Shown here: positions 10,321-41,975 of the stretch, one piece after another | How the letters are laid out: every line of letters starts with the position of its first letter | How positions within the stretch are numbered: the first letter of the stretch is position 1 | Source of the DNA: a virus | Length of the DNA: 62,684 bases | Virus record (IMG/VR): IMGVR_UViG_3300010883_000026 | Location: 1 to 62,684 of that record | Strand: one strand, 5' to 3' | Made by a program: the position numbers and the translations under genes | The notes under the pieces: generated by a model | What the model was told of the DNA's origin: nothing | Seen by the model: only the letters and a program-made list of their open reading frames with translations | Database searches by the model: none

Positions 10321-11367
10321 TTATGTCTGAAAGACAACTGGTGTGGGCTTTTGTTTCGGCTCGGACATTTTCTTATAGGCTAGATAGCCAAGTCCGCCTG
10401 CTCCCGCCAAACCTGCGGCGGGCAGTAAGTACTTGTTGAGGTCCGACGCCTCTCTACCCTCACCTAGTATACCCTTGAGTCCCCGACTTGCTCGACTACC
10501 GGCAGCGCCTATACTTGCGCCCCCAAGACCAAGAGCATGGAGACCGCCAGCAAGGCCAGGAAGAGCCGACTTAGGATCAGAGGCCATTCGGCCCAGAGCA
10601 GGGATGCCTAACAAAGAAGCGAGCCCTGAGGTCCTCTTGAAGCCTCGGTGCCAGCGTTGGGCCTCACCCAAATCAGAAAACTTGGACAGTCCTCGGACTA
10701 ACCGTTCCCTGTTAATCTTCTTCAGTTCGTCCCAGTTTCTAAATCTTTTTACCCCTGGAACCTTTTCCCAGGTGCGCGACCACCACCCCGGAGCCGCCTG
10801 GGTAGGGGGGCGAAACCCATGGAGCATGCCCGCAGCAGCAGGGCTGCCAGCAAAGTCTTTAGCCTTCTTCACCCCGTGTTTGCCGTAAACTTTCAAGACG
10901 TCCATCAAATTGAGGGCGAGCTTGGTTTTGACCTCAGCAGAGTTTAGTTTAATTTTTTCTGCAGGCGGCAGCTTTTTAACCCTTTTTTTATCGTACTTCT
11001 TTAGCATTGCCTGAGTAAGCGCCTTCGTGCGTACTGTGGACGGCAGCTTTTTAGGCACTACCTGTTTAAGCTCTGCTGGAAGGGTACCTTTTTTGCGCGA
11101 CGGCTTTGGTCTCTCCTCCATCACAGTATTCTTAGTGACCTCCGCTACAGTGGTTCTCAGCGGTCGTAAGGGAGGGCTCTTTACATTCTCTGAGACGCTT
11201 TTCTGTACCCGTTTAAACTTTTCTCGTTCCTCACTTCTTGTGACTGGTGCTTTCGCTGCGGTCTTAACAACCGGCTCCTTCAGGGAAATAAAGAACGACG
11301 TGGCCTCAAGAAACTTTTTATCAGTGTCCTGCTCGTCAACCACCATCTTTTCAAAAACGTTCATCAT
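10321..11367 (-). CDS. Basic internal virion protein with C-terminal Gly/Ala-rich hydrophobic segment
   Basis: The 348-residue product is strongly basic in its first 150 residues (many KK, RK and PKK runs). It ends with Gly/Ala/Leu-rich hydrophobic stretches near 255-295 and 312-332 (LPAAGLAGAGGLGYLAYKK). The segment GRMASDPKSALPGLAGG recalls RMASDPLVASSFL in the 19.1 kb gene product. Together with the genes at 18.3-20.5 and 25.3 kb it forms a group that could be DNA-associated or injected proteins. It starts at a double ATG. The function is unknown. Confidence 0.45.
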   Translation of the reverse strand: MMNVFEKMVVDEQDTDKKFLEATSFFISLKEPVVKTAAKAPVTRSEEREKFKRVQKSVSENVKSPPLRPLRTTVAEVTKNTVMEERPKPSRKKGTLPAELKQVVPKKLPSTVRTKALTQAMLKKYDKKRVKKLPPAEKIKLNSAEVKTKLALNLMDVLKVYGKHGVKKAKDFAGSPAAAGMLHGFRPPTQAAPGWWSRTWEKVPGVKRFRNWDELKKINRERLVRGLSKFSDLGEAQRWHRGFKRTSGLASLLGIPALGRMASDPKSALPGLAGGLHALGLGGASIGAAGSRASRGLKGILGEGREASDLNKYLLPAAGLAGAGGLGYLAYKKMSEPKQKPTPVVFQT

Positions 11368-13085: not shown

Positions 13086-14276
13086 TCAGAACTGAGCCAC
13101 CTGTGGGAACGTCTGGCCTTCCTCAACAAGATTGTTGAGCCTGCCAAGCTGATCCTCGGCCAACGGCAAGAACGCAGTACGAGCAGCAGCGTTGGTAGCG
13201 CCTACAGTCGTCTCCACCGAGCCCGCATAAAGCTCAAGCTTACGGCAAGAAGCGACGTTACCAATGTACATGCCGATATCTTCCCAAGCCTCAAACGAAA
13301 TACGATTGCGCTCCTTATCTGCATAAAACTTAGTCTTATTCAGAATGAGGAACCCACCCATGTACTCAGGTGAGGTGAAGGCATAGATATTACCAGGACG
13401 CAGGAGATCAGTCTTCAAGGTACGGATGAACTTACGGCCAATGACCGTAGAGTACTTGTACCCATCAACAGAAGTCTCACCAACGATCTTGTCGCCCATC
13501 TCGGTGATCGCCCAAGAGTTGATGTCCTCAAAATCCGTGTCGGTAATGAGAAACTGATTACAACGCAAACGCGAACCGCGATTCCCTGTACCTGTGAAAA
13601 GTTGAAACAACTTAATCAGGTCGTCCTTCTGGACGGGGAAAGAGAGAGTATCATTGGTTCCACCGTCAATAGCAGCAATATCGTGCCCGCCAATGACGTC
13701 GATACCCTTAACCTTACCAACTTCAGCCAAACCTGCAGCGACGTTCAACGCAGTAAATGCGGCAGCGGTGGGGTACGCGGCACCAAAGGCCAAGCCTTGG
13801 GCATCCTGCTGAAGGGACTGACAGGCAGACTCAATGTGGTTGAGGAAGACACTGTCTTCAACTTCCTGGATATCGTTGACGATATTCCGCTTGATGATCT
13901 GCGTGATGGGCAACGAGTACGCCATCAACTCCTGCTCAGTCTGCTCATAGCGCTCCGAACCAACAGTGTGGAAAGGAACTTCGAACCGAGGTGAGGTGTA
14001 GTAGCGCACGTTCGGCTGTCCTCGGAAGGACATCGACATGGACCGACTCTCAGGCTCAGTCTCAACGATCTTGACCAGGGTGTCATGACTGACGCTAACC
14101 TGGAGATCGGCACGGGTTACAGTTTTGGGAGGAAGAACTTTGCGTGCAAAGCTCTCCTCTCGGAGACGGTCGCGGATGTAGTCACTGCCCAGGGCAGCGA
14201 TTTTCTCTTTTCCGGCCTCTGTATCGAGCTTAGAAAGAAAAAGCTCGTTGAGGACTTCGCTAGGTACATTCGACAT
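13086..14276 (-). CDS. Major capsid protein, HK97-fold type
   Basis: This is a 396-residue protein directly downstream of the protease, scaffold and decoration genes, with a strong terminator after it. The N-terminal helical arm (to about residue 60) contains EKIA at 24-27, a possible processing site. The middle and C-terminal parts show capsid-like patterns: QIIKRNIVNDIQEVEDSVFLNHI, RSRLRCNQFLITDTDFEDI-type strands, and a P/A-domain-like end around YMGGFLILNKTKFYADKERNRISFEAWEDIGM. Length, order and abundance signals agree. Assignment by similarity search was not possible here. Confidence 0.75.
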   Translation of the reverse strand: MSNVPSEVLNELFLSKLDTEAGKEKIAALGSDYIRDRLREESFARKVLPPKTVTRADLQVSVSHDTLVKIVETEPESRSMSMSFRGQPNVRYYTSPRFEVPFHTVGSERYEQTEQELMAYSLPITQIIKRNIVNDIQEVEDSVFLNHIESACQSLQQDAQGLAFGAAYPTAAAFTALNVAAGLAEVGKVKGIDVIGGHDIAAIDGGTNDTLSFPVQKDDLIKLFQLFTGTGNRGSRLRCNQFLITDTDFEDINSWAITEMGDKIVGETSVDGYKYSTVIGRKFIRTLKTDLLRPGNIYAFTSPEYMGGFLILNKTKFYADKERNRISFEAWEDIGMYIGNVASCRKLELYAGSVETTVGATNAAARTAFLPLAEDQLGRLNNLVEEGQTFPQVAQF

Positions 14277-14292
14277 TACTTAGTCCTCCTTA

Positions 14293-14895
14293 TTACACGT
14301 TAGCGATTTGGGTGAGTCGAGCTTGATCATAAAGATAAAACTCAATTTCTCCGGTACCGGAGACAACAGAATCGGTAACTACGCGTACAACATAGCCAAC
14401 AATCCAGCAGTGATCCAGAGCGGTAGTGGATGGGGCACCCGTGGTGCCCTGTGCAGCCAAAGTAAGCAGCATCCGAGCAGTAGAGCCCTGCACGGCAACG
14501 GTCGGAGCCGCCACTGTCAGTGGCGCACCTTCTACCCACTGAGCCAAATTGGCGTCGGCACTATCGACGTTAAAGCACCTAGTGGTGAAACGCCCGCCTC
14601 CCTTACGAATGACGGGAACCCGAGAGTCCCCAAGAGCCGAACGATCAGAACGAAGCGCCGATCCCCACACCATACCGAGACCGTGGCCTCCGGGAGTGGT
14701 GTTTGCGGCATTGACGGCGCTGATCGTTTCGCCCGTACCATCATTTCCAGTCTTGGAAACGGCGACAATAAATTGACCATCCTCTGGAGCGGCGGCAATC
14801 GCACTACAGTCAACATCTTCCACAAGCATGTGGAGAGTTGACGTAGTGGGACTAACGCTGCGTCGGTTGGTGGCCTGTAATCCTACAAGAGCCAT
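14293..14895 (-). CDS. Capsid decoration / stabilisation protein candidate
   Basis: This is a 200-residue, beta-rich, Thr/Ala/Val-rich protein encoded immediately upstream of the major capsid gene, with a strong GGAGGAC ribosome site. Strand-like segments (GQFIVAVSKTGNDGTGETI, TARMLLTLAAQG, GEIEFYLYDQA) suggest a single beta-sandwich. Decoration proteins are often encoded in this position. The call is positional. Confidence 0.5.
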   Translation of the reverse strand: MALVGLQATNRRSVSPTTSTLHMLVEDVDCSAIAAAPEDGQFIVAVSKTGNDGTGETISAVNAANTTPGGHGLGMVWGSALRSDRSALGDSRVPVIRKGGGRFTTRCFNVDSADANLAQWVEGAPLTVAAPTVAVQGSTARMLLTLAAQGTTGAPSTTALDHCWIVGYVVRVVTDSVVSGTGEIEFYLYDQARLTQIANV

Positions 14896-14919
14896 TTTTT
14901 AGTCCTCCAAAAAAACGTG

Positions 14920-15264
14920 TTAGTTTCCGAGAATAAAATTCTCGAACGCTGAAGCTGAATCTGCGTCGTCTGGCATATCAGACACAGACGCGAACGAAAG
15001 ATCCGGAGCAGATAAAGCAAGTGCCTCTTTGACAACACCCAGATCCTTTTTGGAAGCCAGCAATGCTGCTACCTTCTGCTTGAAAGGAACGGATCCATCA
15101 GAAAAGCCACGGGCCTCCATCATAGAAACAATCTCTTCCGCCTGCCCCGACCGCCTATACTCTTCAAGAGTAGAAGCGAGCTTGGTGTTCTCCTCGACCA
15201 AGGCTCTAAGAACCTGTGGTACTTGAGAAAGAACCTCCAGAGTGGGTTTATCAAGTTGTCCCAT
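14920..15264 (-). CDS. Small helical protein between scaffold and capsid genes (114 aa)
   Basis: This 114-residue, mainly helical protein starts inside the end of the upstream gene (14-base overlap). Residues 15-40 (VLRALVEENTKLASTLEEYRR) look like a coiled coil, and the C-terminal end is acidic (SDMPDDADSASAFENF). It may assist capsid assembly. There is no recognised family. Confidence 0.5.
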   Translation of the reverse strand: MGQLDKPTLEVLSQVPQVLRALVEENTKLASTLEEYRRSGQAEEIVSMMEARGFSDGSVPFKQKVAALLASKKDLGVVKEALALSAPDLSFASVSDMPDDADSASAFENFILGN

Positions 15265-15859
15265 GACCAGCCTCCTGACCTAGTTTAGCTAGAAGTCTGT
15301 TTTTCAACATACTAGTAGCCTCTTTCCTCGCCATTGGCGATTCGCCACGATCTTCAGCGGTCTTCACGCTCTCTTCAGAAGGAACGCTCTCGTCTATCTC
15401 GTCGGCACTCAAAGCTGACTGTAAAATGTCAGCTAAACTCAAATCATCTATGTTTCCCGAAGTGTCGGCTTCCGTAAAAACGTCCTCGACCTCGGCTGTT
15501 TTCTCCTCAAAGACCTCTTCAATCTCCTCAGTGGGAGAGTGCTTCAGCGCTTTAAGGCGATTTAGTACATTCTGAACTAGGGCTGTTTCGTTTGAGCCCT
15601 CTTTACTTTTTTCAGCTAGCTTGGTCTGTAACTTACTGCGCAACGACGTGGACATGTCCCCAACGCTGCTGTCAATAAGAGATGGTGTCTGCGAAGACGT
15701 AGGCTCTTTTTGGATATCGACTATGTAGTCGATGGCCGAAGCAAGCTTTTCTACGTACACCGGGTCTGTCTTGAGGCCGGAAGGCTCATCAGAGTTTTTA
15801 GGTTCATCAGAGCAAACCCCAGTTGCTAGCTTCTCAATCAATGAATTTAGAGATGTCAT
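15251..15859 (-). CDS. Acidic head-assembly protein, scaffold-like
   Basis: This 202-residue protein is acidic, Ser/Glu-rich and apparently mostly helical or disordered, as scaffold proteins often are. It carries several copies of the block-wide motif EK(L/T)A: IEKLATG, VEKLASA and EEKTAEV, plus VKTAED. It lies between the protease/scaffold pair and the capsid gene. A processed scaffold or internal head protein is inferred. Confidence 0.45.
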   Translation of the reverse strand: MTSLNSLIEKLATGVCSDEPKNSDEPSGLKTDPVYVEKLASAIDYIVDIQKEPTSSQTPSLIDSSVGDMSTSLRSKLQTKLAEKSKEGSNETALVQNVLNRLKALKHSPTEEIEEVFEEKTAEVEDVFTEADTSGNIDDLSLADILQSALSADEIDESVPSEESVKTAEDRGESPMARKEATSMLKNRLLAKLGQEAGHGTT

Positions 15860-15934
15860 AAACTCTCCTGGGGCTTACGAGGTTGGTTAGAACACCGCCT
15901 CGCCCGCGCTCCTCTCAGCATTATATTACCAACT

Positions 15935-15976
15935 AATGATACAAACAAAGCTACTAATAACTAAGTTTGTATCATT
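15935..15976 (-). terminator. Perfect 12-bp inverted repeat
   Basis: AATGATACAAAC at 15935-15946 is exactly mirrored at 15965-15976, with an 18-base loop, 12 bases after the stop of the scaffold candidate. The stem is AT-rich and the minus-strand tail is AGTTGGTAATATAAT, without a T-run. It may be a weak terminator, a 3' stability element or a protein-binding operator. Confidence 0.5.
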
Positions 15977-15987
15977 GGCCGATCTTT

Positions 15988-16527
15988 TTAGCCTTCAAGA
16001 GCATTGGCGATAGCGTCAAGATCGTAACCAGCCTCGGACAGAAGCTCAGCGGCCCTGTTATCAAGCGCACCATCGATCTCTTCGTCATTGTAACCGGCAG
16101 CAGACTGCTTCTCGACACCACCGACCGCCTCAAGGATGGCGTTGGCGCGATTGACAGCTTCATCTTCGAAGGCCTGAGCAAACTCCTCATCGGAGGCTAC
16201 CTTCTCAGTACCACCATGCTGAATAGTAGTAAGCTCATCATAAAAAGCGTGGGCCATGGTGCGGCCAAGAAAATCAGCCTCAGCAACCTTCTCCTGACCT
16301 TCCTCCTCATAAGCCGCTGCGGTCTTTTCGACACCAGCGCCCCCCATAGCCTCAGAGATGATCTCGACGATCTCATCGTCACTAAACTCACTGAGGTCAA
16401 TGCCCTCAGCAGCAGCGACCTTTTCAAGCTCTTCGAGAATGGCCGCTTCCGCAGTCTTCTCTAAAGATCCATTATTCGCAGTGATATTGTCCTGGGTGCC
16501 ATAGGCCTGTGCAAGTAGCTCGTTCAT
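15988..16527 (-). CDS. Capsid scaffold candidate with five EK(T/V)A repeats
   Basis: ATG 16527 is chosen because GGAGGG lies seven bases upstream; a GTG at 16542 lacks such a site. The 179-residue product is very acidic and Ala-rich. It contains EKTA at 23-26 and 67-70, EKVA at 35-38, 79-82 and 109-112, and EKQS at 139-142, spaced by helical acidic segments. It sits directly after the protease gene and before the capsid gene, where phages with a maturation protease encode the scaffold. The repeats may be cleavage sites used to dismantle the scaffold. Confidence 0.5.
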   Translation of the reverse strand: MNELLAQAYGTQDNITANNGSLEKTAEAAILEELEKVAAAEGIDLSEFSDDEIVEIISEAMGGAGVEKTAAAYEEEGQEKVAEADFLGRTMAHAFYDELTTIQHGGTEKVASDEEFAQAFEDEAVNRANAILEAVGGVEKQSAAGYNDEEIDGALDNRAAELLSEAGYDLDAIANALEG

Positions 16528-16615
16528 TCTTATACCCTCCACGGTATAGTTTTAGAAAAAAAGTGTCTAACAGGGCACAGTCTTCGGTTGGCCTTTTGCC
16601 ACCTAGCACCCAAAA

Positions 16616-18256
16616 CTAAAATCCCCTCAACATTGTACTTACGTGCTTATCTATCTGACCGGATCTAAATAGATTCGTGCCCAGCCTAGTAAGTCCCAAA
16701 AATACAGATGAGGCGATTATGGGGTGTTGCTCAATAAACCTATCGAGAGGTCCTGTTGATTTACCGCCACCCATTTGCTTTCGCCTAACATGGGCACCGT
16801 AAAGATACGTGAGGGGCATAATACCTAACAAACCCAAAGGCAGCTTTGAGGCCGTCTTATCTAGGAGTGTCTTACCCATCAACATATCTTCAAATCCAGA
16901 CTCACTAAGGTTAGCGAGCAACCTAAAATCCTTACTTGTTATATTATCAACTACTGAATCTATGTTTTCAAGTAGTTGTTGCCGATACCCATTGTACCCG
17001 TCCGCTATCTTATTTAGAAGCGGTGATTCACTAGTAGTTAAACTTTCTGGTGCCGTCAATGGGTTTTTACGAATTGTAACTACAATTCGCTTTGTCAACA
17101 TAGGCTCAAACATACTCCTACGCCCAAGCATTGGCGCTATCAGATCTCTTATTTTACCAACGTGATCAAGGGGGTTCCCGAGAGAAACACTACGGTCCAT
17201 ACCAGAAGTGGGGGAGAATACTGTACCCGCTCTATCTAGTCTATCGGCCAAGGGTCTCTTGCCCATACGTATTAATATTACGCGTTGATACTCTTTGGGC
17301 TTCAGCACTATGCCTGAAGACGCTGTACTCGTTAAGATCTTTTTAAGGGGGTGCTCTGCTAAAGAGTCGAGCATTGGTCTAGGGAGCGACGGCTCACCAG
17401 AGAAGGCCTTCGGCATAATCTTGGCCGACATCGAGGGCACGCGCTTTATAATAGTGGCGACTTTGCCCCTAGCGGCCACTTTTTCCCTAATCTCGTAAGA
17501 CTCCGCAAGCCTATAGTCCTCAGCTAGTTCTGCTGACGACTTCGCTGTAAACGCGTGGGCGACCTTGGCCATAGCGAAGCTGGTCCGATCAGCACCTATA
17601 ACGACAAAACTTAAATCAAAAAACTTAGGCTTAGGATTGTAGACAAAGACTTTCCTGCCATCTGGTAGGATCTTACCCATCATGGTCTTTGTATGGAGGC
17701 AGTAGTCTGCCCTAGTCTTAGACCTATGCCCGCATATGGAGCAGACATCGTACTTGACCTTACACCCCATACTCACTGCGGGGTGCCCACCTCTGTCTAA
17801 AGTATCTACTATGTCTAGGTGGCCTTCCGCTCTAGCCTTCTGCCTATCAATCTCTAGTATAAGCTCAACCCGGTGCATGATAGGATTGTAGCAAGCGCAA
17901 ATAATCTTTCCTAAGGAACGCTCCTTATCTTTATTCTTGTGGTGTCTGTAGATACCTGAAGAGACAAAAGTTTTGTATCCAGCTACATTTGAGATGTCAT
18001 CGCCCAAATTAGGATTTAACTCACTCTCCTCAAAGTAGTCCCCATTGATATTGCTGCCGTAGTACTCACCAGCCCCCAGGGCATTGACTAGGACGTAGAT
18101 TTTGCTAGCGCAGGGGGACAGCCCATCTATAAAAGATCGAATCCTTGGGAACAGATCGCCCGAGGCCACCTTTTCCATATTCCGCCCAGGTCTAATAGCC
18201 TGGACGAATATGTTCCCATGGTCGTCTTGTCCCGGAAATGTTAGAAGCTTGAACAC
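16616..18256 (-). CDS. Prohead maturation protease with zinc knuckle and long C-terminal extension
   Basis: This 546-residue protein has a GTG start. The first ~230 residues fit an assemblin-type serine protease: NINGDYFEESEL, then the His pair H105-H106 in GIYRHHKNKD, strands LGKIICACYN and RVELILEIDR, and S162 in PAVSMGCKV. C172, C175, C186 and H188 could form a zinc site just after the active serine. Residues about 240-546 are an extension rich in basic residues, with hydrophobic segments near the end, so the gene may encode protease plus a core or internal protein. It carries MEKVAS (28-33), EKVAARG and DKTASK. Its position before the scaffold and capsid genes supports the call. Confidence 0.6.
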   Translation of the reverse strand: MFKLLTFPGQDDHGNIFVQAIRPGRNMEKVASGDLFPRIRSFIDGLSPCASKIYVLVNALGAGEYYGSNINGDYFEESELNPNLGDDISNVAGYKTFVSSGIYRHHKNKDKERSLGKIICACYNPIMHRVELILEIDRQKARAEGHLDIVDTLDRGGHPAVSMGCKVKYDVCSICGHRSKTRADYCLHTKTMMGKILPDGRKVFVYNPKPKFFDLSFVVIGADRTSFAMAKVAHAFTAKSSAELAEDYRLAESYEIREKVAARGKVATIIKRVPSMSAKIMPKAFSGEPSLPRPMLDSLAEHPLKKILTSTASSGIVLKPKEYQRVILIRMGKRPLADRLDRAGTVFSPTSGMDRSVSLGNPLDHVGKIRDLIAPMLGRRSMFEPMLTKRIVVTIRKNPLTAPESLTTSESPLLNKIADGYNGYRQQLLENIDSVVDNITSKDFRLLANLSESGFEDMLMGKTLLDKTASKLPLGLLGIMPLTYLYGAHVRRKQMGGGKSTGPLDRFIEQHPIIASSVFLGLTRLGTNLFRSGQIDKHVSTMLRGF

Positions 18257-18273: not shown

Positions 18274-19080
18274 TTACTCTTTACTCTTCTTCCTAAGAAC
18301 TGCTGCAGTGCCTACTGCACTAGTTCCCGCCAAGGCGGTCGGAAGGGTGTACTTGTTCTCATGCACAGCCTTTCTGGTGTCTTTAAGACCTCCGGCGGCG
18401 AGGGCTTTAAGCCTCTCTACATCCCGCTTCATGCTAGAGGCCCGCGCTCTCTTCTTAGGCCCTCTAAATCTACCGGGCTCTTTCCCATAGACGGCTCGCT
18501 TAAGGGCTTTCTTCAAACGCTCTTTTGCGCCGGGTGTTCCCTCACCAAGTAGCTTCTCTTTTAATTTCCGCAAAGCTGCTTTGGTCCCTTCTGCATGAGC
18601 GGCCTCTTTCCTGATGGGGTGAGTATTCATGAGCACAGATCCACTTTTGTTAAAGCCAGCACTGGCTTGTTTCTTCTTCAGGGCCTCAATTAGTTGATTA
18701 GCGGCAACGCCTGCCCCAGCACCCGTTCCTGCAGTAAGCGCGCTCATCCCAAGTAAAAGCCTTTGGCGCTCTTTCAACTCCTTGGGATACTGTTTTTTAC
18801 GCTTAAGCCCACGTATCAAGGTCTCAAGAACCCCAGCACCTCGACCCCCTGCTGAAATGATAGGGGCTAGGCCTTCTACAGCCTCAACGTTTTCAGGACC
18901 CATGCGCGGGGCAGTTTTCTTGGCACCCTCTAAGATAGACTTTAGGTACACATAAGATTTTGCTTTCGGATCAAGAACCTCATCAAGAACACTATCCGCT
19001 ACGGCTCTACGCGTGGGAGGTGCCTCCCCAGCCATAAGAATTGAATTTATATGTTTTAGGCCTTTACCTAAAGACATCAT
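18274..19080 (-). CDS. Basic Gly/Ala-rich virion protein (268 aa)
   Basis: The 268-residue product is Lys/Arg-rich. It has one hydrophobic Gly/Ala segment around residues 107-130 (LLLGMSALTAGTGAGAGVAANQLI) and a second at the C-terminus (LPTALAGTSAVGTAAVL) ending in RKKSKE. The region between is a long basic helix. It belongs to a run of similar proteins (18.3-20.5 kb, 25.3 kb) that could be ejected with the DNA or line the head interior. Function unknown. Confidence 0.45.
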   Translation of the reverse strand: MMSLGKGLKHINSILMAGEAPPTRRAVADSVLDEVLDPKAKSYVYLKSILEGAKKTAPRMGPENVEAVEGLAPIISAGGRGAGVLETLIRGLKRKKQYPKELKERQRLLLGMSALTAGTGAGAGVAANQLIEALKKKQASAGFNKSGSVLMNTHPIRKEAAHAEGTKAALRKLKEKLLGEGTPGAKERLKKALKRAVYGKEPGRFRGPKKRARASSMKRDVERLKALAAGGLKDTRKAVHENKYTLPTALAGTSAVGTAAVLRKKSKE

Positions 19081-19085
19081 TACCT

Positions 19086-19784
19086 CTAAGTGCCAAATCC
19101 AACTAGAGCAGAAGCAGCAGTAGGCAGAGCCTCTGAAAGAAGAGACGTCGCTTTTGGCTTGGACTGCGTCCAGTTCTTAGCAACTTCAGTAAGTGTTTTA
19201 ACATCCATAGGTTGAATGCCCTCATCTTTGAACTGTAGCGACCTTTTCAAGAAGGAGCTTGCGACTAAAGGATCAGACGCCATCCTACGATTAAACCTAT
19301 ACAGCGTACTAAATATATTAGCTACGTCTTTAGGACTTTCTTTTTTCAGGGCAGGGGTCTCTTGTAGCATCCTTTTGAAATAGATCTTCTTCTTAATTGG
19401 CCCCTCTATTTCATCGTAAATTTTCTCTGTTCCCTTAATCCCCGCACCAATAGCAGTCGCCCCTAAGCCGTAGCCCAGAACCTGCCTACCTGGGGAACCC
19501 TTGCCGAATAACTGCTGGACGAGTGACTTTTTGGGGGTGAGCTTCTCTATGATCTTAGGGAGCGCGTGTGCCCCCGCCCCCGCTATCAGAGCACCAACAG
19601 CCGCCTTGGGTGCTTTTTCAATAGCCTCCCGTGTAAGTTTTCGTGCGAAAGCCCGGTGTGGGTGCGCTTGCTGAGCCTTAAACTCTTTTAGCTCCTGCGT
19701 CTCCCTAAGTATTCTTAGCGTCCGGGCGGCGGGCGACTCTTGCTTCCGGGTCGCCAGCTTACTAAGCACATATGCTCTATTCAT
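19086..19784 (-). CDS. Basic virion protein with membrane-like segments (232 aa)
   Basis: The 232-residue protein has a basic N-terminal helix (residues 1-60), then AVGALIAGAGAHALPKI and VLGYGLGATAIGAGIKG, two Gly/Ala-rich hydrophobic segments, then a helical C-terminal half (NIFSTLYRFNRRMASDPLVASSFLKR). Composition and neighbours place it with the putative internal or ejection proteins. There is no recognised family. Confidence 0.45.
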   Translation of the reverse strand: MNRAYVLSKLATRKQESPAARTLRILRETQELKEFKAQQAHPHRAFARKLTREAIEKAPKAAVGALIAGAGAHALPKIIEKLTPKKSLVQQLFGKGSPGRQVLGYGLGATAIGAGIKGTEKIYDEIEGPIKKKIYFKRMLQETPALKKESPKDVANIFSTLYRFNRRMASDPLVASSFLKRSLQFKDEGIQPMDVKTLTEVAKNWTQSKPKATSLLSEALPTAASALVGFGT

Positions 19785-19789
19785 GACGA

Positions 19790-20455
19790 CTACCTCCAGG
19801 CTCCACCAGCAAACGGATCAGCCGTAGAGGGCTGTGTGGAAAATTGTCTTAAAACATCAGGGGCTATTTTATTCTGGGGCATGCCCGGAATGAAGCCCTT
19901 TGCTAGCGCTCTAAGGTTGGGATCAGAGGCTAATAAATACGCCAGAACCCCGCCCCCTGCGGCCATGTATGGGTGCTTTTGGGCGAACCCAGCAAGACCG
20001 CCATAGGTGGTTTTTCTACGGAGTGCGTGCTCTAGATCACCGACCGGCGTTCTTTGAAAGAGGCTTTTTAACTCCCCAGGAAGTTCTCCCGCCCTAATCT
20101 TACGAGCAACATCTGGGTCTACTGCAGAGTAGTCCCCGAGAACGCCTTTACCAGCAGCGGGAGTTGGGCGAAGCCTAGTACCTTTATAGGGTCCGTAAGA
20201 AGCTTTCCGCCCCATCAAGACATTTCCAGGCATTTGTAGAAGGGGGTCGAACACTGATTTGGAGGCTGCCACGGGGCCTGCCCTAAGAAAGGCGTCCATC
20301 CCACCCCTTGCCCCCTCGGATAATTTAGACCGGGCCCCAAGAACAGCATTCTGCCCAGGTGTTCCTGGCTCCCCACCAAGAATCCAGTCCCCGATTCTCT
20401 CAGTTCTAGATCTCAGTGCAGCCAACTTAACTCTATGTGCAAGAGTGTGTCTCAT
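19790..20455 (-). CDS. Basic virion protein with one hydrophobic segment (221 aa)
   Basis: This 221-residue, arginine- and glycine-rich protein has one membrane-like stretch (HPYMAAGGGVLAYLLA) near residues 163-178. The rest is likely loops and short helices (LKSLFQRTPVGDLEHALRRK). It follows the 353-residue gene by 10 bases and precedes another protein of the same character. Internal or ejection role is inferred from the cluster. Confidence 0.4.
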   Translation of the reverse strand: MRHTLAHRVKLAALRSRTERIGDWILGGEPGTPGQNAVLGARSKLSEGARGGMDAFLRAGPVAASKSVFDPLLQMPGNVLMGRKASYGPYKGTRLRPTPAAGKGVLGDYSAVDPDVARKIRAGELPGELKSLFQRTPVGDLEHALRRKTTYGGLAGFAQKHPYMAAGGGVLAYLLASDPNLRALAKGFIPGMPQNKIAPDVLRQFSTQPSTADPFAGGAWR

Positions 20456-20465
20456 ACAAGTACTC

Positions 20466-21527
20466 CTACATCATGGCGGGTTGAGGCGCACCTGTTGGCG
20501 GAGCAGGGCCTGCGGAAGGGGCTCCCATCGGGGGACCTGGAGGGCCTGGAGGGCCCGCTGGCGGAGGACCGACGGGAGGTCCTGCTGGCGGAGGACCGGC
20601 CATCGGGATACCCGCTGGGGGGGATCCCAACTGGGCCCCTGGCGGTGCAATCGGGGGTGCGGATGATCGGAACAACTCAGACCCAGGGCTGAAGTTCATG
20701 TCCGGACCCTTTAGAATAGAGAGAAGCTCTGTCATGGATGCCTGAGTTTTCTGAACTGCCTGCTGAGTAGCGACAAGCTTTTCAGAGATACCCTCCAGGT
20801 CTTGGGTGAGCCCTGTTATCGGATTTTGAGGAACCATGAACCCGCCAAAAGCCACCTTCTCTAAAGAGTTCAACTCAACGTAATCCCCAAGAGTCTCCTT
20901 CACAATGAGACTCAAACCTTTAGAGGGGTTCCCCTTATCTATTGCGGCCCCAATAACCATTGGCGAGTGACCTTCCGCTGAAGCCTGTTTACACAATGTG
21001 GTGAACTCAGCTAGTTTAAGGAAGAAAGCTGTGCCGAGTAGTTCTTTTGTGGCGCTAGCGTCATCGAATTTATTCTTGGTTGAGAGATAGTCTAGTTTTA
21101 CTTTTGCCCTGTCAACAAAGGCGACCTTTTCTTTACCCACCGCTCCACCAAAAATCTTTTCTAGTGAAACACTCTCTTGGCCAGGAATATATTTACTGGT
21201 AATAACTTCCCTGGCCGCCGTTTTACACATGGGGCGGGCCTCTATGTTCTGGACTACGGCGTTCGCGTCCGCCATTGGGAAGGTAATATTCTTACTAAAC
21301 CCGCTTTTGAACATGGTGGTAAACGTATCGTTGTTGGCAAACTCAACCACCCTCTTTATCTGCTCGTAGTTCAGACTGGCTTCTTTTGCTATACCCTTAA
21401 TGCTGTCGTTTAAAGGTATGTTCTCTTCTAAGTACTTGGCTGCGGCCCTGCGCCCCATACTTTTAAGCTCGTCTGGGCTTAAAGAAGAATCTTCTTTGGA
21501 AAGAATATAATTTTCTAAATCGTTCAT
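20466..21527 (-). CDS. Virion protein with proline-rich collagen-like tail (353 aa)
   Basis: Residues 1-265 look helical and contain the recurrent motif: IAKEASLN, CKTAARE, EKVAFVD, CKQASAEG and LEKVAFGG. Residues about 285-350 are a low-complexity run of PPAGPP-type repeats (Pro, Gly, Ala, Met). It follows the terminase gene. Such proline-rich ends often form extended, flexible or multimeric stalks. It could be processed by the prohead protease if EKVA is a cleavage signal. Function unknown. Confidence 0.45.
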   Translation of the reverse strand: MNDLENYILSKEDSSLSPDELKSMGRRAAAKYLEENIPLNDSIKGIAKEASLNYEQIKRVVEFANNDTFTTMFKSGFSKNITFPMADANAVVQNIEARPMCKTAAREVITSKYIPGQESVSLEKIFGGAVGKEKVAFVDRAKVKLDYLSTKNKFDDASATKELLGTAFFLKLAEFTTLCKQASAEGHSPMVIGAAIDKGNPSKGLSLIVKETLGDYVELNSLEKVAFGGFMVPQNPITGLTQDLEGISEKLVATQQAVQKTQASMTELLSILKGPDMNFSPGSELFRSSAPPIAPPGAQLGSPPAGIPMAGPPPAGPPVGPPPAGPPGPPGPPMGAPSAGPAPPTGAPQPAMM

Positions 21528-23428: not shown

Positions 23429-23639
23429 CCGGGGAATTGAACTTACTACACTCCCCGTCACCTCTCCAAGCCCGACCGTTCTTATAGGAAAAGTGCGTGC
23501 AATCACTGCACTGCTGGGATCCCTGGGCCAGTCGGAGGTTCGGGAGCTTTGGCAACCTCAGCAGGTCCTTGAGGGCCTCCGCCTCCAAAGATTCTGTGGA
23601 AGAGCCCTTTGGGCTGAGGAGGTTCTTTTGGATAGACAT
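23388..23639 (-). CDS. Four-cysteine small domain protein overlapping the helicase end
   Basis: This 83-residue frame starts inside the SNF2-like helicase gene (137-base overlap, shifted by +1). The last 42 residues form a compact module (CSDCTHF, GECSKF, FVCDDYE) with four cysteines, a pattern seen in small HiPIP-like or zinc domains in phages. The start ATG 23639 has only a weak GGGAA upstream. It could therefore be made as a separate protein, or as an extension of the helicase by frameshifting. The domain pattern is seen; its expression mode is not. Confidence 0.5.
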   Translation of the reverse strand: MSIQKNLLSPKGSSTESLEAEALKDLLRLPKLPNLRLAQGSQQCSDCTHFSYKNGRAWRGDGECSKFNSPVKDDFVCDDYESV

Positions 23640-25293
23640 AGCGTGTTTTCCCAGTAGCGGTCCTATACTTCTTTATGTACTTGTGTGGCGACTTTATAGC
23701 ACCGTAGAACTGTTTGCTAGTAGATCGCTTTTGCCCCGCCACACTATACATCCACTCGTCCGTAGTCTGCGGGGCCTTCTTGCCAAAGGCCCTACCAATA
23801 AATGAGGGTTTGGCCGATTCTGGGACAGTGCTCTGATACCTTCTTACATCGACCTTGCGCTCTTCAGGAATTCTTGCGGCCTGTCCCCCTAATCTTCTGA
23901 CTCTGCCCTCTGCTTGAAGAATCCTCTCAGGATTAAAATGCCCATCCAGAGCATAGAAAGCTGTGGCATCTTTGAGGTCGAGTCCTTCTGCCCCCGCACC
24001 GCTAAGGACAATAACTCTCTTCTTGCCCTGCTTAAAGGACTTCACACCAGTCTGCCTAATTTCAGAAGTAACCTTTGACCCCGCTATTTCAGTACCCTTG
24101 CCAATAAATAGGGCGTGGTCAATACCCATGGATTTAAGTCCTGCTGATAAGACATCAACGCCGCCATTGATGAGATTAGAGTACAGCACTACTTTGTTGT
24201 CTGGTCTGCTCTCCAAATGACGCGCTGTGTCATTTAGCAGTTTCTTTACCTTAGGTGTCGCTACAGCGGACTGCTCCACAGTTACATCTTTTCTTCCTGT
24301 GTGCAGGGAGTTCGAGAGTTTTCTAGCTTGACTCATCTGCACAAATAGCTGGTTGGCGTCCTTTACCGTTATGTTCTGGTCTTTCTTTGTGATGTACGTT
24401 TTAAGAGGGCCGAGCCGGTCAAGAGCGTACTGGTAAAGTTTATACTGCTCATCCGACATGGGGACCTTAACGTTCTTAAGCTCCTTCCTCGGCATACTCT
24501 TGCCCTTTAAGTCATCGGTAGTAACAAAGTGAACTCGGGGAGTTACTGTCTTTACGAAGGCTGTTGGGTTTCTCAAGCCAACAACTTTTCTATCCTTTCC
24601 TCCGAAACTTTTAGTATGTCCCACTGTCTGTGTGAAAGCCTTCTTAAACTGGTTTGGGGACATTCCCCTATGGGATTCCGATATAGTCAGGAGGGACGCA
24701 ATCTCAGAGGGATGATTGTTAATCAATGAGGCCGTTAAGCCCATAAAGTTTCGTGCGTAGGGCCTAGCGGCTACAGCAGCCTTAAATACCTGGGAGCCCT
24801 CATTTCGTATCTTATGGTACTCATCAAAAATGAGTGTGTCCGCCCCCGTCCTCTTCATAAACCCAGCGGGGTCCCTCCTAAACATTGCATAGGAGACTAT
24901 TGTGTAGTCTTTGTTCGGACCCACAGCATTAGGCCGAACGTAATTCTTTTTGGCCTTTTCGCTAGATGAGGCAACAACCTGATAAGAGCTATTGGTAAAC
25001 TTGGCTACACCGTTCTCTGCAAAATTGTTTCTCAACCCGGAGGGTACGACTACTAAGGCCTTTCCAGCTTTTCCTATGTGCTTTAGTTTCTCAAAACCAT
25101 AAATGCTGGTTACTGTCTTTCCGGTGCCCATCTGGTGGGCTAAAATCATCTTGCCGTTATTGTCTAATAGCTTCTGTACCGCGTCCTCTTGGTGGTCATA
25201 AGGTTTAAACCAAGCCTTCAAAGAAGGTATACCTGTTCCGTGACCTCCTTCGCCTTCCGCAGCATATTTTATTACGTAGTTATATAGACTCAT
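23503..25293 (-). CDS. SNF2-like superfamily 2 helicase in the virion block
   Basis: This is a 596-residue DNA-dependent ATPase. It has HQEDAVQ (Q-motif-like), Walker A HQMGTGKT (K59, T60), motif II DEYH (157-160), motif III LTAS, motif V GAEGLDL and motif VI QAEGRVRRLG, an SNF2/SF2 pattern with both RecA-like lobes. The C-terminus carries a basic motif at about 538-557 (KKYRTATGKTRYVYP) that is also present at the N-terminus of the next-upstream gene product, then a Gly/Pro-rich tail. Late-block location next to terminase and internal proteins suggests it acts in packaging, or is carried in the virion to act on host DNA or proteins. Replication use is less likely because another SF2 helicase lies in the early block. 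Confidence 0.75.
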   Translation of the reverse strand: MSLYNYVIKYAAEGEGGHGTGIPSLKAWFKPYDHQEDAVQKLLDNNGKMILAHQMGTGKTVTSIYGFEKLKHIGKAGKALVVVPSGLRNNFAENGVAKFTNSSYQVVASSSEKAKKNYVRPNAVGPNKDYTIVSYAMFRRDPAGFMKRTGADTLIFDEYHKIRNEGSQVFKAAVAARPYARNFMGLTASLINNHPSEIASLLTISESHRGMSPNQFKKAFTQTVGHTKSFGGKDRKVVGLRNPTAFVKTVTPRVHFVTTDDLKGKSMPRKELKNVKVPMSDEQYKLYQYALDRLGPLKTYITKKDQNITVKDANQLFVQMSQARKLSNSLHTGRKDVTVEQSAVATPKVKKLLNDTARHLESRPDNKVVLYSNLINGGVDVLSAGLKSMGIDHALFIGKGTEIAGSKVTSEIRQTGVKSFKQGKKRVIVLSGAGAEGLDLKDATAFYALDGHFNPERILQAEGRVRRLGGQAARIPEERKVDVRRYQSTVPESAKPSFIGRAFGKKAPQTTDEWMYSVAGQKRSTSKQFYGAIKSPHKYIKKYRTATGKTRYVYPKEPPQPKGLFHRIFGGGGPQGPAEVAKAPEPPTGPGIPAVQ

Positions 25294-27465: not shown

Positions 27466-28249
27466 CTTCGCCCCTAAGGTCTTCAATGCTGGATATATCG
27501 CGCTTGCCTAATTTTATAGCTATGCCCCTAAGCTCTCCTAATATCTCCTTGGCAGCGTCTCCGGTTCTTTCTATTTCCTCATTAGCCTTGAATATGTTTT
27601 CCGCCCACAACTTGGCGGTTAGGGCTGTGTGGCGGTTGTTGGGCTTGCCGCTTAGTTCCATAAATCGCATAGACGACTCATGGAAGACAGATTTCAGAAT
27701 AGACTCTTTGGAAACGTCAATCCTATAACCCAACTTCCACAGGGCAAACTCCTCACCTTTGCTGAAGCAGCCTTTAAGGAGTTTACCCTCCGGGTAGGTC
27801 TCTAGATAGGCATACCAGCCCCTTAGGGACATAATCTTAGGATTCCAAAAGTAATGTTGGTATAGAGCAACAGTCCCGGAGCTAATGTCGCTATTACAAA
27901 GTAAACTTAAATAGTCAGAAATTGTAGCAGCGGGGGTCTCTGTTAACGTCAACGCCTCAATAATGAGGCGCTTTTTGTCATCCCCCAGTATAGACCTAGC
28001 CTGGACGGCTTCAGTGTCCTCCCTATAAAGAGACATAAACCTTTGCCGCCTCACCCACGATAGAACTCCGGATGAATTAAGTCTAAATGGCGCTGGCTTT
28101 GTCTCATTCAGTTTAGAGTTTAATTCAGAGAGATACCCTGCACTGGGGGGTACCATGCCGTACATCTCTGCCAACGCTATTATCTGGCCTCGCCTCAGGC
28201 CAGAAAAAGTAAGCATATATTTCAGCCAGTACTCGTTTGGCTGTTTCAT
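27458..28249 (-). CDS. Hypothetical helical protein (263 aa), small-terminase or connector candidate
   Basis: ATG 28249 shares a base with the upstream TGA (TGATG), so this start is chosen over GTG 28252. The 263-residue protein is mostly helical; an early part (RRGQIIALAEMYGMVPPSAGYLSELN) could fold like a helix-turn-helix. The rest has no recognised motif. Position upstream of terminase leaves a small-terminase role open, although the spacing of three genes is unusual. Confidence 0.4.
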   Translation of the reverse strand: MKQPNEYWLKYMLTFSGLRRGQIIALAEMYGMVPPSAGYLSELNSKLNETKPAPFRLNSSGVLSWVRRQRFMSLYREDTEAVQARSILGDDKKRLIIEALTLTETPAATISDYLSLLCNSDISSGTVALYQHYFWNPKIMSLRGWYAYLETYPEGKLLKGCFSKGEEFALWKLGYRIDVSKESILKSVFHESSMRFMELSGKPNNRHTALTAKLWAENIFKANEEIERTGDAAKEILGELRGIAIKLGKRDISSIEDLRGEDE

Positions 28250-30240
28250 CACCCACCTGCAAAGCTAAGCCTCATCTGAAGTTTCTTAAGGCCTAAGATC
28301 GCTCTTTCTAAGCCCCTTAGGGCCGCTGAAACTGCGGGCTCAGGTATATCAGAGAGGCCTAATCGAACACCTATAAGAAGTTCAGCCAATTTAGCTGTAG
28401 CCTGCTCAAACTCTGGCAGGGAGTCAATGTAGCCCTGAACATTCTCTGGCGTTATGAAATTAAGGGATAGGACCGAATCTACCGTATCCGGCCCTGCAAG
28501 CATTGAAGCCTCTTTGGTTAAGTCAGCTTTAAGGAGACTTACTACCTTCGTTACTTCTGGGTCGCCCACGGAGACTTCGGATTTAGGAGTTAACACCTTC
28601 CCGGCAATGACTTCCACCTTGTCTCCAGACAAAGCCTCGGCCAGCTTTTCTTTTGCCCCTGACGAACTGTCACCAAGAGCCCCCAAAACTAGAAGCCCGG
28701 TTTTATAGTCTACAGCCCCCAGCTTCAGGTTGTCCACAGGTCTACCACAGAACTCAAACTGAGTTCCATCAGAAACCACCGCAACCTTATTCATCAGGGT
28801 GTTTTGGGAAGCCAGTTTGTCTATGCTACCCACGTCGCTTCTAAACCCGTCACCATAACTTAAGGGGATGAACTTACTATCCTCAGGTATCAGGTACTCC
28901 CTTTCGGACACCTTAACTGGTTTTAGAACAGACGCTTTCTTTACAATGCACGGGGGCCCTAGTGTCTTCGTTGCAAGATAGCTAACATCCCCACCTTTCT
29001 CTGTTACTGTTTGCGTGATGAACACAGGCTCTGATGTCTGCCCCAACTTGGGAAACAGGAAAGTGCCCTCCCCTCTGGGTTTCGACCCCTCGATTAGGGA
29101 AAAATCTACATCTCCACAACGGATGCCTGCAACATCATCTTGAATAGAAGCCCCAGACTTACCCACTATATACGCCAACTTAGTGTTTCTTCCTTCAAAG
29201 GTGACCACGTCTCTTAGGACAATAGCCCTCTCTGCCGCCCCAGCTTTTGGCAAAACTGCGTACACCCCTGTACTGGCTATCTTCTCCAGGTTATCTGTAG
29301 CTCCTACACGCTCAAGCGCAGCTTCATTACTCGATAATAAGCAGTAACCGCTCCCCACAACTTCCTGACGGACAGACAGAGGAATAGTCTCCGCGTGGCT
29401 ATTCGCTATAAACGCAACCTTTACCTTAAAGGTATCTGCGGAAACAGAAGTTACTTCATAGCCACCGGGGGCTTTTCTCAAGACTGCTGCTGAGAAGTCT
29501 TCATCTACAACGACACTTTCAGCTTCCTTTTTAAAATAGGAAATCTTCGACACAGCTTGGTGGAACGCTGGGTTTGTCTGGAAGGCGGACTTCAGCCATT
29601 GGTCAACAGCGATCTTCTCAATCACCTTGTTCGCCACATCCTCACTCACCGTATTCCCAATGCGGGCCAGAACAGAACTGACCTTCTCCACAGAAGAATT
29701 GGGTGGCCCAAATCCACCCCCAGCCCCCGCAGCACTAGTAGGCGCATCTGGTTGGAAGTTCCCCCCAGCACTGAACTGCTGTGCGCCTGTGAGGGCGCTC
29801 TTGGGTGCTACCATATAGGGACTAGAGGAGAACAGAGCCGATGCGATTCGTTCTTCACTGAGGGGACGGAAGCTGCCATCATGCGTGATGAAGACATCAA
29901 AAGAGTGAGCCTTCTTATTGTCAACAATGATGGGAATTCGCAGGGTCTCTTCAGAAGCAGGGGGTTGTTCCCCGCCTCGTGAGATCATGTCCATCCTTTT
30001 TTGCATCTCCTCAGGAGGCGGTGCCGATACAGGAGACACAGTGAATACCCCGTAGAGGTACCCCATCGAGGAGTCTTGCCCCTCAATCGATAAGTTCACA
30101 TCATACCTACCTAAGTATGGATGTTGCTTATACAGTTGGGCCGTCAACTCACTTGCGTAGGTCGCCGGGTTGTCGCTCAAAGAGAACTTTGCTGCAACTT
30201 TAACGAATTGCGGCGGAATTACTTTTGTTATAAGCTGCAT
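28249..30240 (-). CDS. Large virion protein downstream of polymerase and spike (663 aa)
   Basis: This 663-residue protein has helical termini and a beta-rich middle. It carries many copies of the block motif: FVKVAAKF, VEKVSSV, IEKIAVDQ, LEKIASTG, DKLASQN, NKVAVVS, EKLAEAL. A Gly/Pro/Ala-rich linker lies near residues 150-185. It is two genes downstream of the RNA polymerase in the same unit, so it may be a polymerase-associated or ejected virion protein. No family is recognised. It starts at ATG 30240 with GGGAGAA upstream. Confidence 0.45.
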   Translation of the reverse strand: MQLITKVIPPQFVKVAAKFSLSDNPATYASELTAQLYKQHPYLGRYDVNLSIEGQDSSMGYLYGVFTVSPVSAPPPEEMQKRMDMISRGGEQPPASEETLRIPIIVDNKKAHSFDVFITHDGSFRPLSEERIASALFSSSPYMVAPKSALTGAQQFSAGGNFQPDAPTSAAGAGGGFGPPNSSVEKVSSVLARIGNTVSEDVANKVIEKIAVDQWLKSAFQTNPAFHQAVSKISYFKKEAESVVVDEDFSAAVLRKAPGGYEVTSVSADTFKVKVAFIANSHAETIPLSVRQEVVGSGYCLLSSNEAALERVGATDNLEKIASTGVYAVLPKAGAAERAIVLRDVVTFEGRNTKLAYIVGKSGASIQDDVAGIRCGDVDFSLIEGSKPRGEGTFLFPKLGQTSEPVFITQTVTEKGGDVSYLATKTLGPPCIVKKASVLKPVKVSEREYLIPEDSKFIPLSYGDGFRSDVGSIDKLASQNTLMNKVAVVSDGTQFEFCGRPVDNLKLGAVDYKTGLLVLGALGDSSSGAKEKLAEALSGDKVEVIAGKVLTPKSEVSVGDPEVTKVVSLLKADLTKEASMLAGPDTVDSVLSLNFITPENVQGYIDSLPEFEQATAKLAELLIGVRLGLSDIPEPAVSAALRGLERAILGLKKLQMRLSFAGG

Positions 30241-40267: not shown

Positions 40268-40945
40268 TCAAGAAAAGAGTCTTTTAAGCTGGTCCAAAAG
40301 CATTTTGGAAATCTGAGTGTTGAAGTCCTTAACTGACAAGGACTTCATTACCTGAATGTCGTCGGGGTTGGTCCCGTCAAACTTTGGGGTTGCCCCTTTA
40401 GAAACTCTTACCTTCACTCTTTCCTGCTGCCCTTTAGAAGCAAAAGACTTTGTATGTTGGTTGCAGGGTTCTAGGGGGCCGGGCCCATAGACCATTCCAT
40501 AGTCTAGCATACACGCCGCTACGTACTTATATACCTCTTTAGATATATCCTTGTCCTCACGGATATGGCCGAAAATCTCTAGTGCAACAGAGGCCCTGTG
40601 GGGGGTACTCTTTTGTATAAGATCAAACCTGGGGGGGAGGCCAAGAAGCCCCATAGCTACTTTTTCAAATACCTCCCATAGCTCGTAAGGCTGGTCTGAC
40701 ACGTGGCATGTTCGGATAGCCTGGATCTTATTTCTATTGATTTCGGATATTGTCGTGCCCCACGTTCGCCCGATCTCAACCCAGCAGGTTTCAGGTTCCC
40801 AGGCAAGGTACTCTTTTTTAAACTCTTTGAGTAAGAGCAAGTTCAGGATCAGGGGATGGGTGTTCTTATTGGTAAACGCCATTTTAGTGGAACTAGGCCC
40901 TTGATATAATTTAGGGGGCGACACATGCTGCTTACCTGGAATCAT
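40268..40945 (-). CDS. Virion-block protein upstream of portal (225 aa)
   Basis: The 225-residue protein starts at ATG 40945 (GGGA eight bases upstream) and overlaps the previous stop by 14 bases; ATG 40882 is an alternative. The mostly helical sequence includes LILNLLLLKEFKKEYLAWEPETCW and FEKVAMGLLG, the latter carrying the EKVA motif. Position before the portal suggests a head or connector protein. Unknown family. Confidence 0.5.
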   Translation of the reverse strand: MIPGKQHVSPPKLYQGPSSTKMAFTNKNTHPLILNLLLLKEFKKEYLAWEPETCWVEIGRTWGTTISEINRNKIQAIRTCHVSDQPYELWEVFEKVAMGLLGLPPRFDLIQKSTPHRASVALEIFGHIREDKDISKEVYKYVAACMLDYGMVYGPGPLEPCNQHTKSFASKGQQERVKVRVSKGATPKFDGTNPDDIQVMKSLSVKDFNTQISKMLLDQLKRLFS

Positions 40946-41948
40946 CGATCATTCCCGCTATGACCTGCTTATGCGTAGTGGGGAGACTTCTAAATACGTT
41001 TACAGGGTCCTCAGAAAACTGTCTATTGAAATCCTCCCCAAACGTCTCTTCTAGCTTGTTGGAAGAGGAGTCCATGTACTCTTGCAAGTCGTCCCTGGTG
41101 TACTCTTTACCACCTACCTCGGTAATGTCGTTGTTAGGGCTTTCTGCGGTCTTCTCAATCGACGTCCCCAATACGGAGGAATACGGGTCGGGAAGAAGCT
41201 TTCCGTATAAATGAGTCAATCCCTGCTTAATGTCGAAATCATACAGGAGCGTTGCTAGAGAATCAACCTCCACGCTAGCTGATTTCTCAAAAAGATAGTC
41301 TAACTCCTCACTGGCCTCTTTATCAAAAGTAACAAGTTTCCTCAGGTCTAAAGACAACTTGAGATCACTGCCTACAGTGCTTCGTGCGTAGTCAGTCATA
41401 CGCGCTGGCAAGTCCTCCTGCACCCCCGCCTCTTTTACCTGTAGCATCAGGCGACGTTTTCCTCTTGGAGAGCAGTCGTCAAAGGCGTCCTCGACCACCT
41501 CATAGGTAGAGTCATTTTCAATACCAAAAAGCTTTTCCAGGCTGATGTTGTCGGCGTGCGTGCTGTACCCAAGTTCCAAGGAAGCTGCCTTTGTCAGCGT
41601 GTCGGGCGCAGCAAACCCAAACGAAACTAGAGCATCATTTAACTTCTGTGCGGTCTTGACTCTGAGGCCTTCAGGTAGGGATTCTCCATACTCGGAGAAA
41701 TACATAGCGGACGCTAGCGTATTTCCAGCGTCCACGCAGGGATACTTGTACTCCTTGCCCGTTGACGAGTCAACAACAAGAGCATAGTCATTATCGTTTC
41801 TGGACACGTTGGAAGATAGGTCAGCGGCAGTTTTAATGATGGCCGGAACGGTATTAAAGCCTATCTCCTTTCTAAGGAAAAGACCATTATCGTCGTAGTG
41901 GTCAAGAACAGAGATTTGTTCTAAAGAAAAAGAATTGGCGTTCGACAT
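40932..41948 (-). CDS. First gene of the leftward virion block (338 aa)
   Basis: ATG 41948 is preferred over GTG 41954 because GGGAG lies at proper distance. The 338-residue acidic product contains an internal segment (DAGNTLASAMYFSEYGESLPEGLRVK) that reads like a conserved phage module. It also has several lysine-alanine motifs (IIKTAADL, VKTAQKL, TKAASLE, IEKTAESP, FEKSASVE). It is the most upstream late gene seen, so the late promoter should be in the 41949-42032 spacer. Probably an internal or structural virion protein. Confidence 0.5.
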   Translation of the reverse strand: MSNANSFSLEQISVLDHYDDNGLFLRKEIGFNTVPAIIKTAADLSSNVSRNDNDYALVVDSSTGKEYKYPCVDAGNTLASAMYFSEYGESLPEGLRVKTAQKLNDALVSFGFAAPDTLTKAASLELGYSTHADNISLEKLFGIENDSTYEVVEDAFDDCSPRGKRRLMLQVKEAGVQEDLPARMTDYARSTVGSDLKLSLDLRKLVTFDKEASEELDYLFEKSASVEVDSLATLLYDFDIKQGLTHLYGKLLPDPYSSVLGTSIEKTAESPNNDITEVGGKEYTRDDLQEYMDSSSNKLEETFGEDFNRQFSEDPVNVFRSLPTTHKQVIAGMIDDSR

Positions 41949-41975
41949 CTCCACACTCCCACAAGGGTTCGACTA

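Follow-up and report, generated by a model that had tools for sequence, protein, structure and literature searches.

A lysine-x-alanine motif in the head proteins of a virus fragment as a probable cleavage signal of its gp21-like prohead protease

Why does a four-residue motif, EK(V/T/I)A, recur in proteins encoded around the prohead protease gene of a virus fragment from IMG/VR? The fragment (IMGVR_UViG_3300010883_000026) is 62,684 bases long and is referred to here, as a whole, as the window. A sequence-only reading of it had suggested that the motif is either the cleavage signal of the neighbouring protease or a packaging tag. A wider signal, lysine-x-alanine (K-x-A), its conservation, its concentration in the head genes and a gp21-like predicted fold of the protease were obtained here. 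We consider it very probable that K-x-A is the cleavage signal of this protease; the cutting, and its position after the alanine, we infer.

The minus strand of the window carries late genes (372-42,232) and the plus strand early replication genes (a helicase, a DnaB-like helicase, a primase, a DNA polymerase and a UvsX-like recombinase). At the head block the gene order is terminase, proteins of 353, 221, 232 and 268 amino acids (aa), protease, scaffold candidate, 202-, 114- and 200-aa proteins, and capsid protein. The protease gene adjoins that of the scaffold candidate in the same block as the capsid gene, and homologues of every protein from the protease to the capsid protein are present in related loci.

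The motif in late and early proteins

The 36 late open reading frames (ORFs; 13,624 aa) contain 16 copies of EK[VTI]A, compared to 0.88 expected from residue shuffles, and the 35 early ORFs (6,539 aa; 0.50 expected) none. This is the count against shuffled sequences that the sequence-only reading had proposed, and it bears out the statement that the early replication enzymes lack such a density. With leucine also allowed (EK[VTIL]A), the 36 minus-strand (late) ORFs contained 19 copies, compared to 1.3 expected, and the 35 plus-strand (early) ORFs none; with the scaffold and 202-aa proteins left out, the late count of EK[VTI]A was 10 (0.77 expected). When gapped triples in the late proteins were ranked, EK.A came fourth, after two cysteine patterns and one glutamine pattern.

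EKxA is most concentrated in the head block. The five EK(T/V)A copies claimed for the scaffold candidate and the EKIA at residues 24-27 of the capsid protein were found as described, and every other protein that had been named carries the motif: two copies in the protease, three in the 202-aa protein (two of them EKLA), two in the 353-aa protein, three in the 663-aa protein (one EKLA) and one each in the 225-aa protein and in the protein given as 338 residues, which has 340. Some of the copies are thus EKLA, and one copy, in a 542-aa tail-fibre-like protein, had not been listed. The single matches in the 225- and 542-aa proteins may be due to chance. EK(V/T/I)A as originally written is real, but it is one favoured version of the more general hydrophobic-x-K-x-A, after which a small residue follows. 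The strict form was rejected as the full motif because it is too narrow: glutamate is preferred but dispensable, and in relatives the V/T/I position is unconstrained.

Shape of the recognition signal

Sequence logos were made from eight chosen marine-set representatives together with the 340- and 663-aa proteins of the window, and from seven proteins each of the nearest named relatives, Salmonella phage Arash and Vibrio phage D69 (D148 and D181 are near-identical to D69); identical site cores were counted once. In the pooled K-x-A sites (257 marine, 93 from Arash and D69), with the cut placed after the alanine, information was confined to P6 to about P3'. Leucine or methionine was found at P5, glutamate or valine at P4, lysine at P3, a loose P2 (T/V, or E/V), alanine at P1 and serine at P1'. 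Serine occupied P1' in 83 marine sites (19.5 expected) and in 33 of the Arash and D69 sites (7.0 expected). These features were absent from K-x-A in the control sets, i.e. about 197 sites in other Arash proteins (a set omitting nine motif-rich or head-block proteins), 39 in early and 68 in other late proteins of the window. The logo looks like a protease subsite profile.

Some prohead proteases, such as that of HK97, cut after lysine, and the enzyme might recognise K-x-A and cut elsewhere, for example after the lysine, which would place the alanine on the primed side. We find this quite improbable, as the strong serine preference lies directly after the alanine and the pattern in T4 and SPN3US is P3-x-P1.

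All residue pairs a-x-c in core proteins were also ranked in a blind scan. With T4 gp21, gp22, gp67 and gp68, I-x-E came second and L-x-E third, which is the known gp21 signal. K-x-A headed the ranking in the window and likewise in Arash and D69. The T4 gp21 specificity class (cut after L/I-x-E) was rejected for the window core proteins, in which I-x-E and L-x-E were outside the top 12. In five actinophage proteins with an N-terminal protease, of which the remainder was scanned, R-x-A ranked first and K-x-A fifth.

Conservation in the scaffold, core and capsid proteins

Related IMG/VR loci were collected with the capsid protein (37) and the protease (13). Each family set was limited to distinct sequences no shorter than 60 % of the window protein, with one best ORF per locus. 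Column conservation covered 27 of the 36 late families, each with at least three members; the other nine, including the 663-, 340-, 225-, 542- and 268-aa proteins, were without a usable homologue set. Columns with xK[VTIL]A in at least half of the members numbered six in the scaffold family, three each in the 202-aa and protease families, two each in the 114- and 353-aa families and one in the capsid family; the 299-aa, 27,142-27,486 and RNA polymerase families had one each. The features concerned are the following.

15988..16527, minus strand: scaffold candidate, 179 aa, five EK(T/V)A; in 19 distinct homologues the motif columns stay in register
16450..16461, minus strand: scaffold site 1, EKTA, 19/20 family members
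16414..16425, minus strand: scaffold site 2, EKVA, 17/20 family members
16318..16329, minus strand: scaffold site 3, EKTA, 20/20 family members
16282..16293, minus strand: scaffold site 4, EKVA, 16/20 family members
16195..16206, minus strand: scaffold site 5, EKVA, 18/20 family members
15251..15859, minus strand: 202-aa core protein with K-x-A sites, columns K10 (12/16), K38 (16/16) and K166 (11/16)
14920..15264, minus strand: 114-aa core protein, K-x-A at 27-30 and 63-66, 24/26 at each column
20466..21527, minus strand: 353-aa motif-rich core protein, related to Arash gp220; hydrophobic-x-K-x-A in the family 108, 12.0 expected
28249..30240, minus strand: 663-aa protein, eight hydrophobic-x-K-x-A, 1.4 expected
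40932..41954, minus strand: 340-aa protein, five hydrophobic-x-K-x-A, 0.37 expected
13086..14276, minus strand: major capsid protein, 396 aa; weak match to PHROG 2522 (major head protein, E 4e-4), blastp to the Arash major capsid protein 9e-33
14196..14207, minus strand: EKIA in the capsid arm, residues 24-27, predicted maturation cleavage after A27; K23, E24, K25 and A27 invariant, 19/19

The scaffold ORF (15988-16542) would give 184 aa from a GTG; the 179 aa run from an internal ATG, which is the start in most homologues too. In this family the motif copies are kept while the linkers vary in length and sequence. In the capsid family K-x-A falls within the first 40 residues in all 28 members, compared to 4.8 expected. 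Also in favour of cleavage in the arm, K-x-A is depleted in the remainder of the capsid protein (8 compared to 47.8 expected, 30 members). Five actinophage capsid proteins (L056-L060, residues about 40-50) share KLA followed by S, H or N some 45 residues in, a possible cleavage point.

Several of these proteins have a high content of E, K and A, and the sets all share descent, so the motif might be a side effect of common ancestry and of helix-rich core proteins with that composition, with no specific recognition. This is highly improbable. The enrichment survives composition-preserving shuffles, and variants with arginine for lysine or with serine or glycine for alanine were not enriched in the shuffle test of the late proteins or in Arash, where the reversed order was not enriched either. 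The motif is kept where its flanks diverge, and in most late families beyond the head core hydrophobic-x-K-x-A is not enriched.

The protease

16616..18256, minus strand: prohead serine protease, 546 aa; PHROG 18299 (head maturation protease) E 2.9e-11; T4 gp21 fold Z 11.9
18164..18175, minus strand: EKVA before the catalytic domain, predicted autocleavage site; K29 and A31 invariant, 18/18
17558..17569, minus strand: AKVA just past the last catalytic strand, predicted autocleavage site; K231 and A233 invariant, 18/18
17474..17485, minus strand: EKVA in the linker after the catalytic domain; K259 and A261 invariant, 18/18

The PHROG match and the gp21-like predicted fold agree with the earlier assignment of this neighbour as a prohead protease, and the protein had no Pfam family match. 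With an AlphaFold2 (AF2) model of the protease, Foldseek returned T4 gp21 (5jbl) first (E 4.4e-4). The comparison by VIA gave Z 11.9 and a root-mean-square deviation of 3.0 over 148 aligned residues, followed by herpesvirus proteases at Z 5.0-5.4, a range that possibly reflects common arrangement only. The catalytic domain is thus predicted to have the gp21/assemblin fold. Confidence in the model is mainly in the catalytic part (predicted local distance difference test, pLDDT, largely 60-90) and in a helical domain near residues 290-380, with pLDDT below 50 at 219-286, the stretch containing K231 and K259. H106 and S162 (in VSMG) are invariant in 18/18 proteases and are candidate catalytic residues. 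A sequence-profile search for a solved relative of the window protease or capsid protein returned none. The catalytic domain also has a zinc-ribbon-like CxxC...CxH insertion at residues 172-188, with C172, C175 and C186 invariant in 18/18; relatives are similar.

The motif could also serve for docking or packaging, with core proteins, protease and capsid arm binding one assembly partner and not being cut there. Its multiple copies in the scaffold and its presence in leaders (see below) are what a valency-based assembly motif would give. We nevertheless hold this to be unlikely: sites lie at both edges of the protease domain, serine is preferred directly after the alanine, information is lost past P3', and the scan that found the motif also recovers the known cleavage signal of T4. 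The common partner would, moreover, most simply be the protease itself.

If K-x-A is the cleavage signal, the protease would recognise hydrophobic-(E/V)-K-x-A and cut behind the alanine, with serine, alanine, glycine or glutamate as the preferred next residue. Within the immature head it would release itself through cuts on either side of its catalytic domain, degrade the scaffold and neighbouring core proteins to small peptides, remove about 27 residues of the capsid-protein arm and strip short N-terminal leaders off internal proteins.

Named relatives

Homologous proteases are found in Arash, D69, Bacillus phage G, and Mycobacterium phage Alice and its relatives. The head proteins of Arash and D69 carry the broader hydrophobic-x-K-x-A, often followed by S, A or G, in the same genes as the window. 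In the Arash head block it occurs 25 times (1.9 expected) and in the rest of the 257 ORFs 16 times (13.0 expected), the ORFs having been called in five overlapping pieces with a few edge ORFs doubled or truncated. The Arash controls hydrophobic-x-R-x-A, hydrophobic-x-K-x-S/G and A-x-K were flat. Arash gp223, a neighbour of the protease, is rich in K-x-A. In a 40-kb piece of D69, six ORFs were prominent, i.e. the protease, two on each side of it, and VPHD69_0296, which resembles Arash gp242 by eye and in motif density. The 340-aa protein of the window may, going by motif density only, be the counterpart of these two. The D69 protein just downstream of the capsid gene (L002:24807-25469) contains a long EVEA repeat tract.

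In phage G and in most of the actinophage relatives a basic-x-A lies close to the positions of the protease-flanking sites of the window. It precedes or follows the domain in phage G, Finch, E3, Stormageddon, Alice and Phrappuccino, but not all of them have it at both ends.

Comparison with known systems

The herpesvirus assemblin consensus is (V/L/I)-x-A before serine, with alanine at P1 and serine at P1'. The window signal differs from it by the lysine at P3, and the window protease is distant from assemblin in sequence and matches it more weakly in fold than it does gp21. The window protease resembles the T4 gp21 system in its predicted fold and in the P3-x-P1 format of its signal. The layout is also like that of T4, with the signal in a multi-site scaffold, at the N-terminus of the capsid protein, at either end of the protease and in short N-terminal leaders. 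In contrast to gp21, the window protease has a long, mostly helical extension after the catalytic domain, and its signal is K-x-A, compared to (L/I)-x-E as given in the accessible parts of PMC9026906.

The mapped logo of SPN3US is A-x-E, with valine favoured at P4 and serine at P1', in the accessible parts of PMC10052503. As described there for SPN3US gp245, and for phiKZ gp175 in those of PMC9026906, a three-residue signal with a free middle, several cuts per propeptide, C-terminal autocleavage and serine at P1' are features in common with the window. Those enzymes differ in cutting after glutamate, where the window would have alanine at P1 and lysine at P3; the T4-like and giant-phage proteases compared in the same parts of the two sources all cut after glutamate.

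The proteases of Arash and D69 are homologous and have the full K-x-A grammar in common with the window. The actinophages differ in showing R-x-A over K-x-A, in a long protein with an N-terminal protease, and phage G in having the signal mainly within the protease itself. No description of a K-x-A prohead-protease specificity was found in the open-access literature searched, and cutting after lysine-x-alanine is apparently a new specificity. If our reading is right, a gp21-like protease with P3 lysine and P1 alanine would be nearer to the herpesvirus signal. A readable cleavage code would predict mature capsid ends, scaffold and head-internal proteins in uncultured viruses, and relatives available as named isolates, Arash and D69 among them, would allow a direct test of the reading.

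Several points weigh against cleavage at K-x-A. The homologues are related by descent, so that their counts lack independence, and descent is not modelled by shuffling; the depletion of K-x-A in the remainder of the capsid protein likewise counts shared ancestry many times over. Hydrophobic-x-K-x-A was fixed after the Arash and D69 head proteins had been viewed, so those enrichments are not fully blind; the pair scan is unaffected because it does not use the broader form. One scaffold site and others fall in likely helices, and the AF2 capsid model was poor (pLDDT 35.2) and was not used. For the phage G capsid protein, the sequence in entry 6wkk comprises residues 1-280 from Met1 and spans its RVA; if residues 1-25 are modelled, the phage G capsid is uncut there. 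Processed N-termini of these phages were not found in the open-access literature searched, and in the accessible parts of PMC7150772 the words 'cleaved' and 'protease' do not occur. Dickeya AD1, Pseudomonas KoPa-5, Vibrio GR7B and Rhizobium N42 have related proteases and no K-x-A enrichment, and Rctr197k has a slight one. With four of five distant phages lacking enrichment, a signal general to all related proteases is unsupported, and K-x-A belongs to part of the protease family. In the five actinophage blocks hydrophobic-x-K-x-A was not clearly enriched.

Short N-terminal leaders

Outside the proteins treated so far, K-x-A closes or lies within the N-terminal part of four proteins (marine counts, with Arash and D69 rows excluded).

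25261..25272, minus strand: IKYA closing the 11-residue leader of an SNF2-type helicase (23503-25293); K-x-A in the first 14 residues in 8/8 complete members, 0.78 expected
19752..19763, minus strand: SKLA closing the leader of the 232-aa protein (19086-19784); 16/19 complete members carry K-x-A within residues 1-45, 8.1 expected
20420..20431, minus strand: VKLA closing the leader of the 221-aa protein (19790-20455); 16/17 complete members carry K-x-A within residues 1-45, 6.2 expected
11257..11268, minus strand: VKTA about 34 residues into the 348-aa protein (10321-11367); K-x-A in the first 40 residues in 4/4, 1.7 expected, equalled by 57/2000 shuffles and thus weak

The SNF2 domain begins at residue 34, the leader K-x-A lying just upstream of the conserved domain, and in the 221- and 232-aa families the position of the leader K-x-A varies among members. 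The Arash homologue of the helicase is without a K-x-A leader. Leader K-x-A was absent from the 200-aa (0/26), 178-aa (0/20), 213-aa (0/17) and 1419-aa (0/12) families and was found in 3/15 terminase members (1.6 expected). Tail, decoration-like and terminase proteins were rejected as targets, as no leader was clearly above shuffles and no half-kept column was present except one in the 299-aa family.

With K-x-A at their end, these short leaders resemble the cleavable capsid-targeting sequences of T4, which end in the signal of the T4 protease, and they may direct their proteins into the head. A packaging tag, the second function originally proposed, is therefore no separate alternative to cleavage, which is the better supported of the two by the logo, the propeptide-like positions, the adjoining gp21-like protease and the T4-validated scan. 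That K-x-A closes the leaders of two head-block proteins and of the helicase suggests that these are packaged cargo. We give about an even chance to the K-x-A code of these marine phages both programming head proteolysis and labelling cargo, with leader proteins including the helicase being loaded, trimmed in the prohead and delivered with the genome. If so, the code could list internal, possibly injected, proteins of uncultured phages from their genomes. The helicase gene (23503-25293, minus strand) sits in the late head block, and its product has a weak PHROG match to DarB-like antirestriction.

Other features of the window

38,259-40,256: portal, by similarity to Arash gp204

The basic 268-aa protein (18274-19080, minus strand) has a homologue in one locus only, at 100 %, and its neighbours are conserved. 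At 31607-37867 (minus strand) a single 2086-aa ORF combines two kinds of RNA polymerase domain, beta-like (Rpb2) and beta'-like (Rpb1); Arash and D69 have two separate genes in its place.

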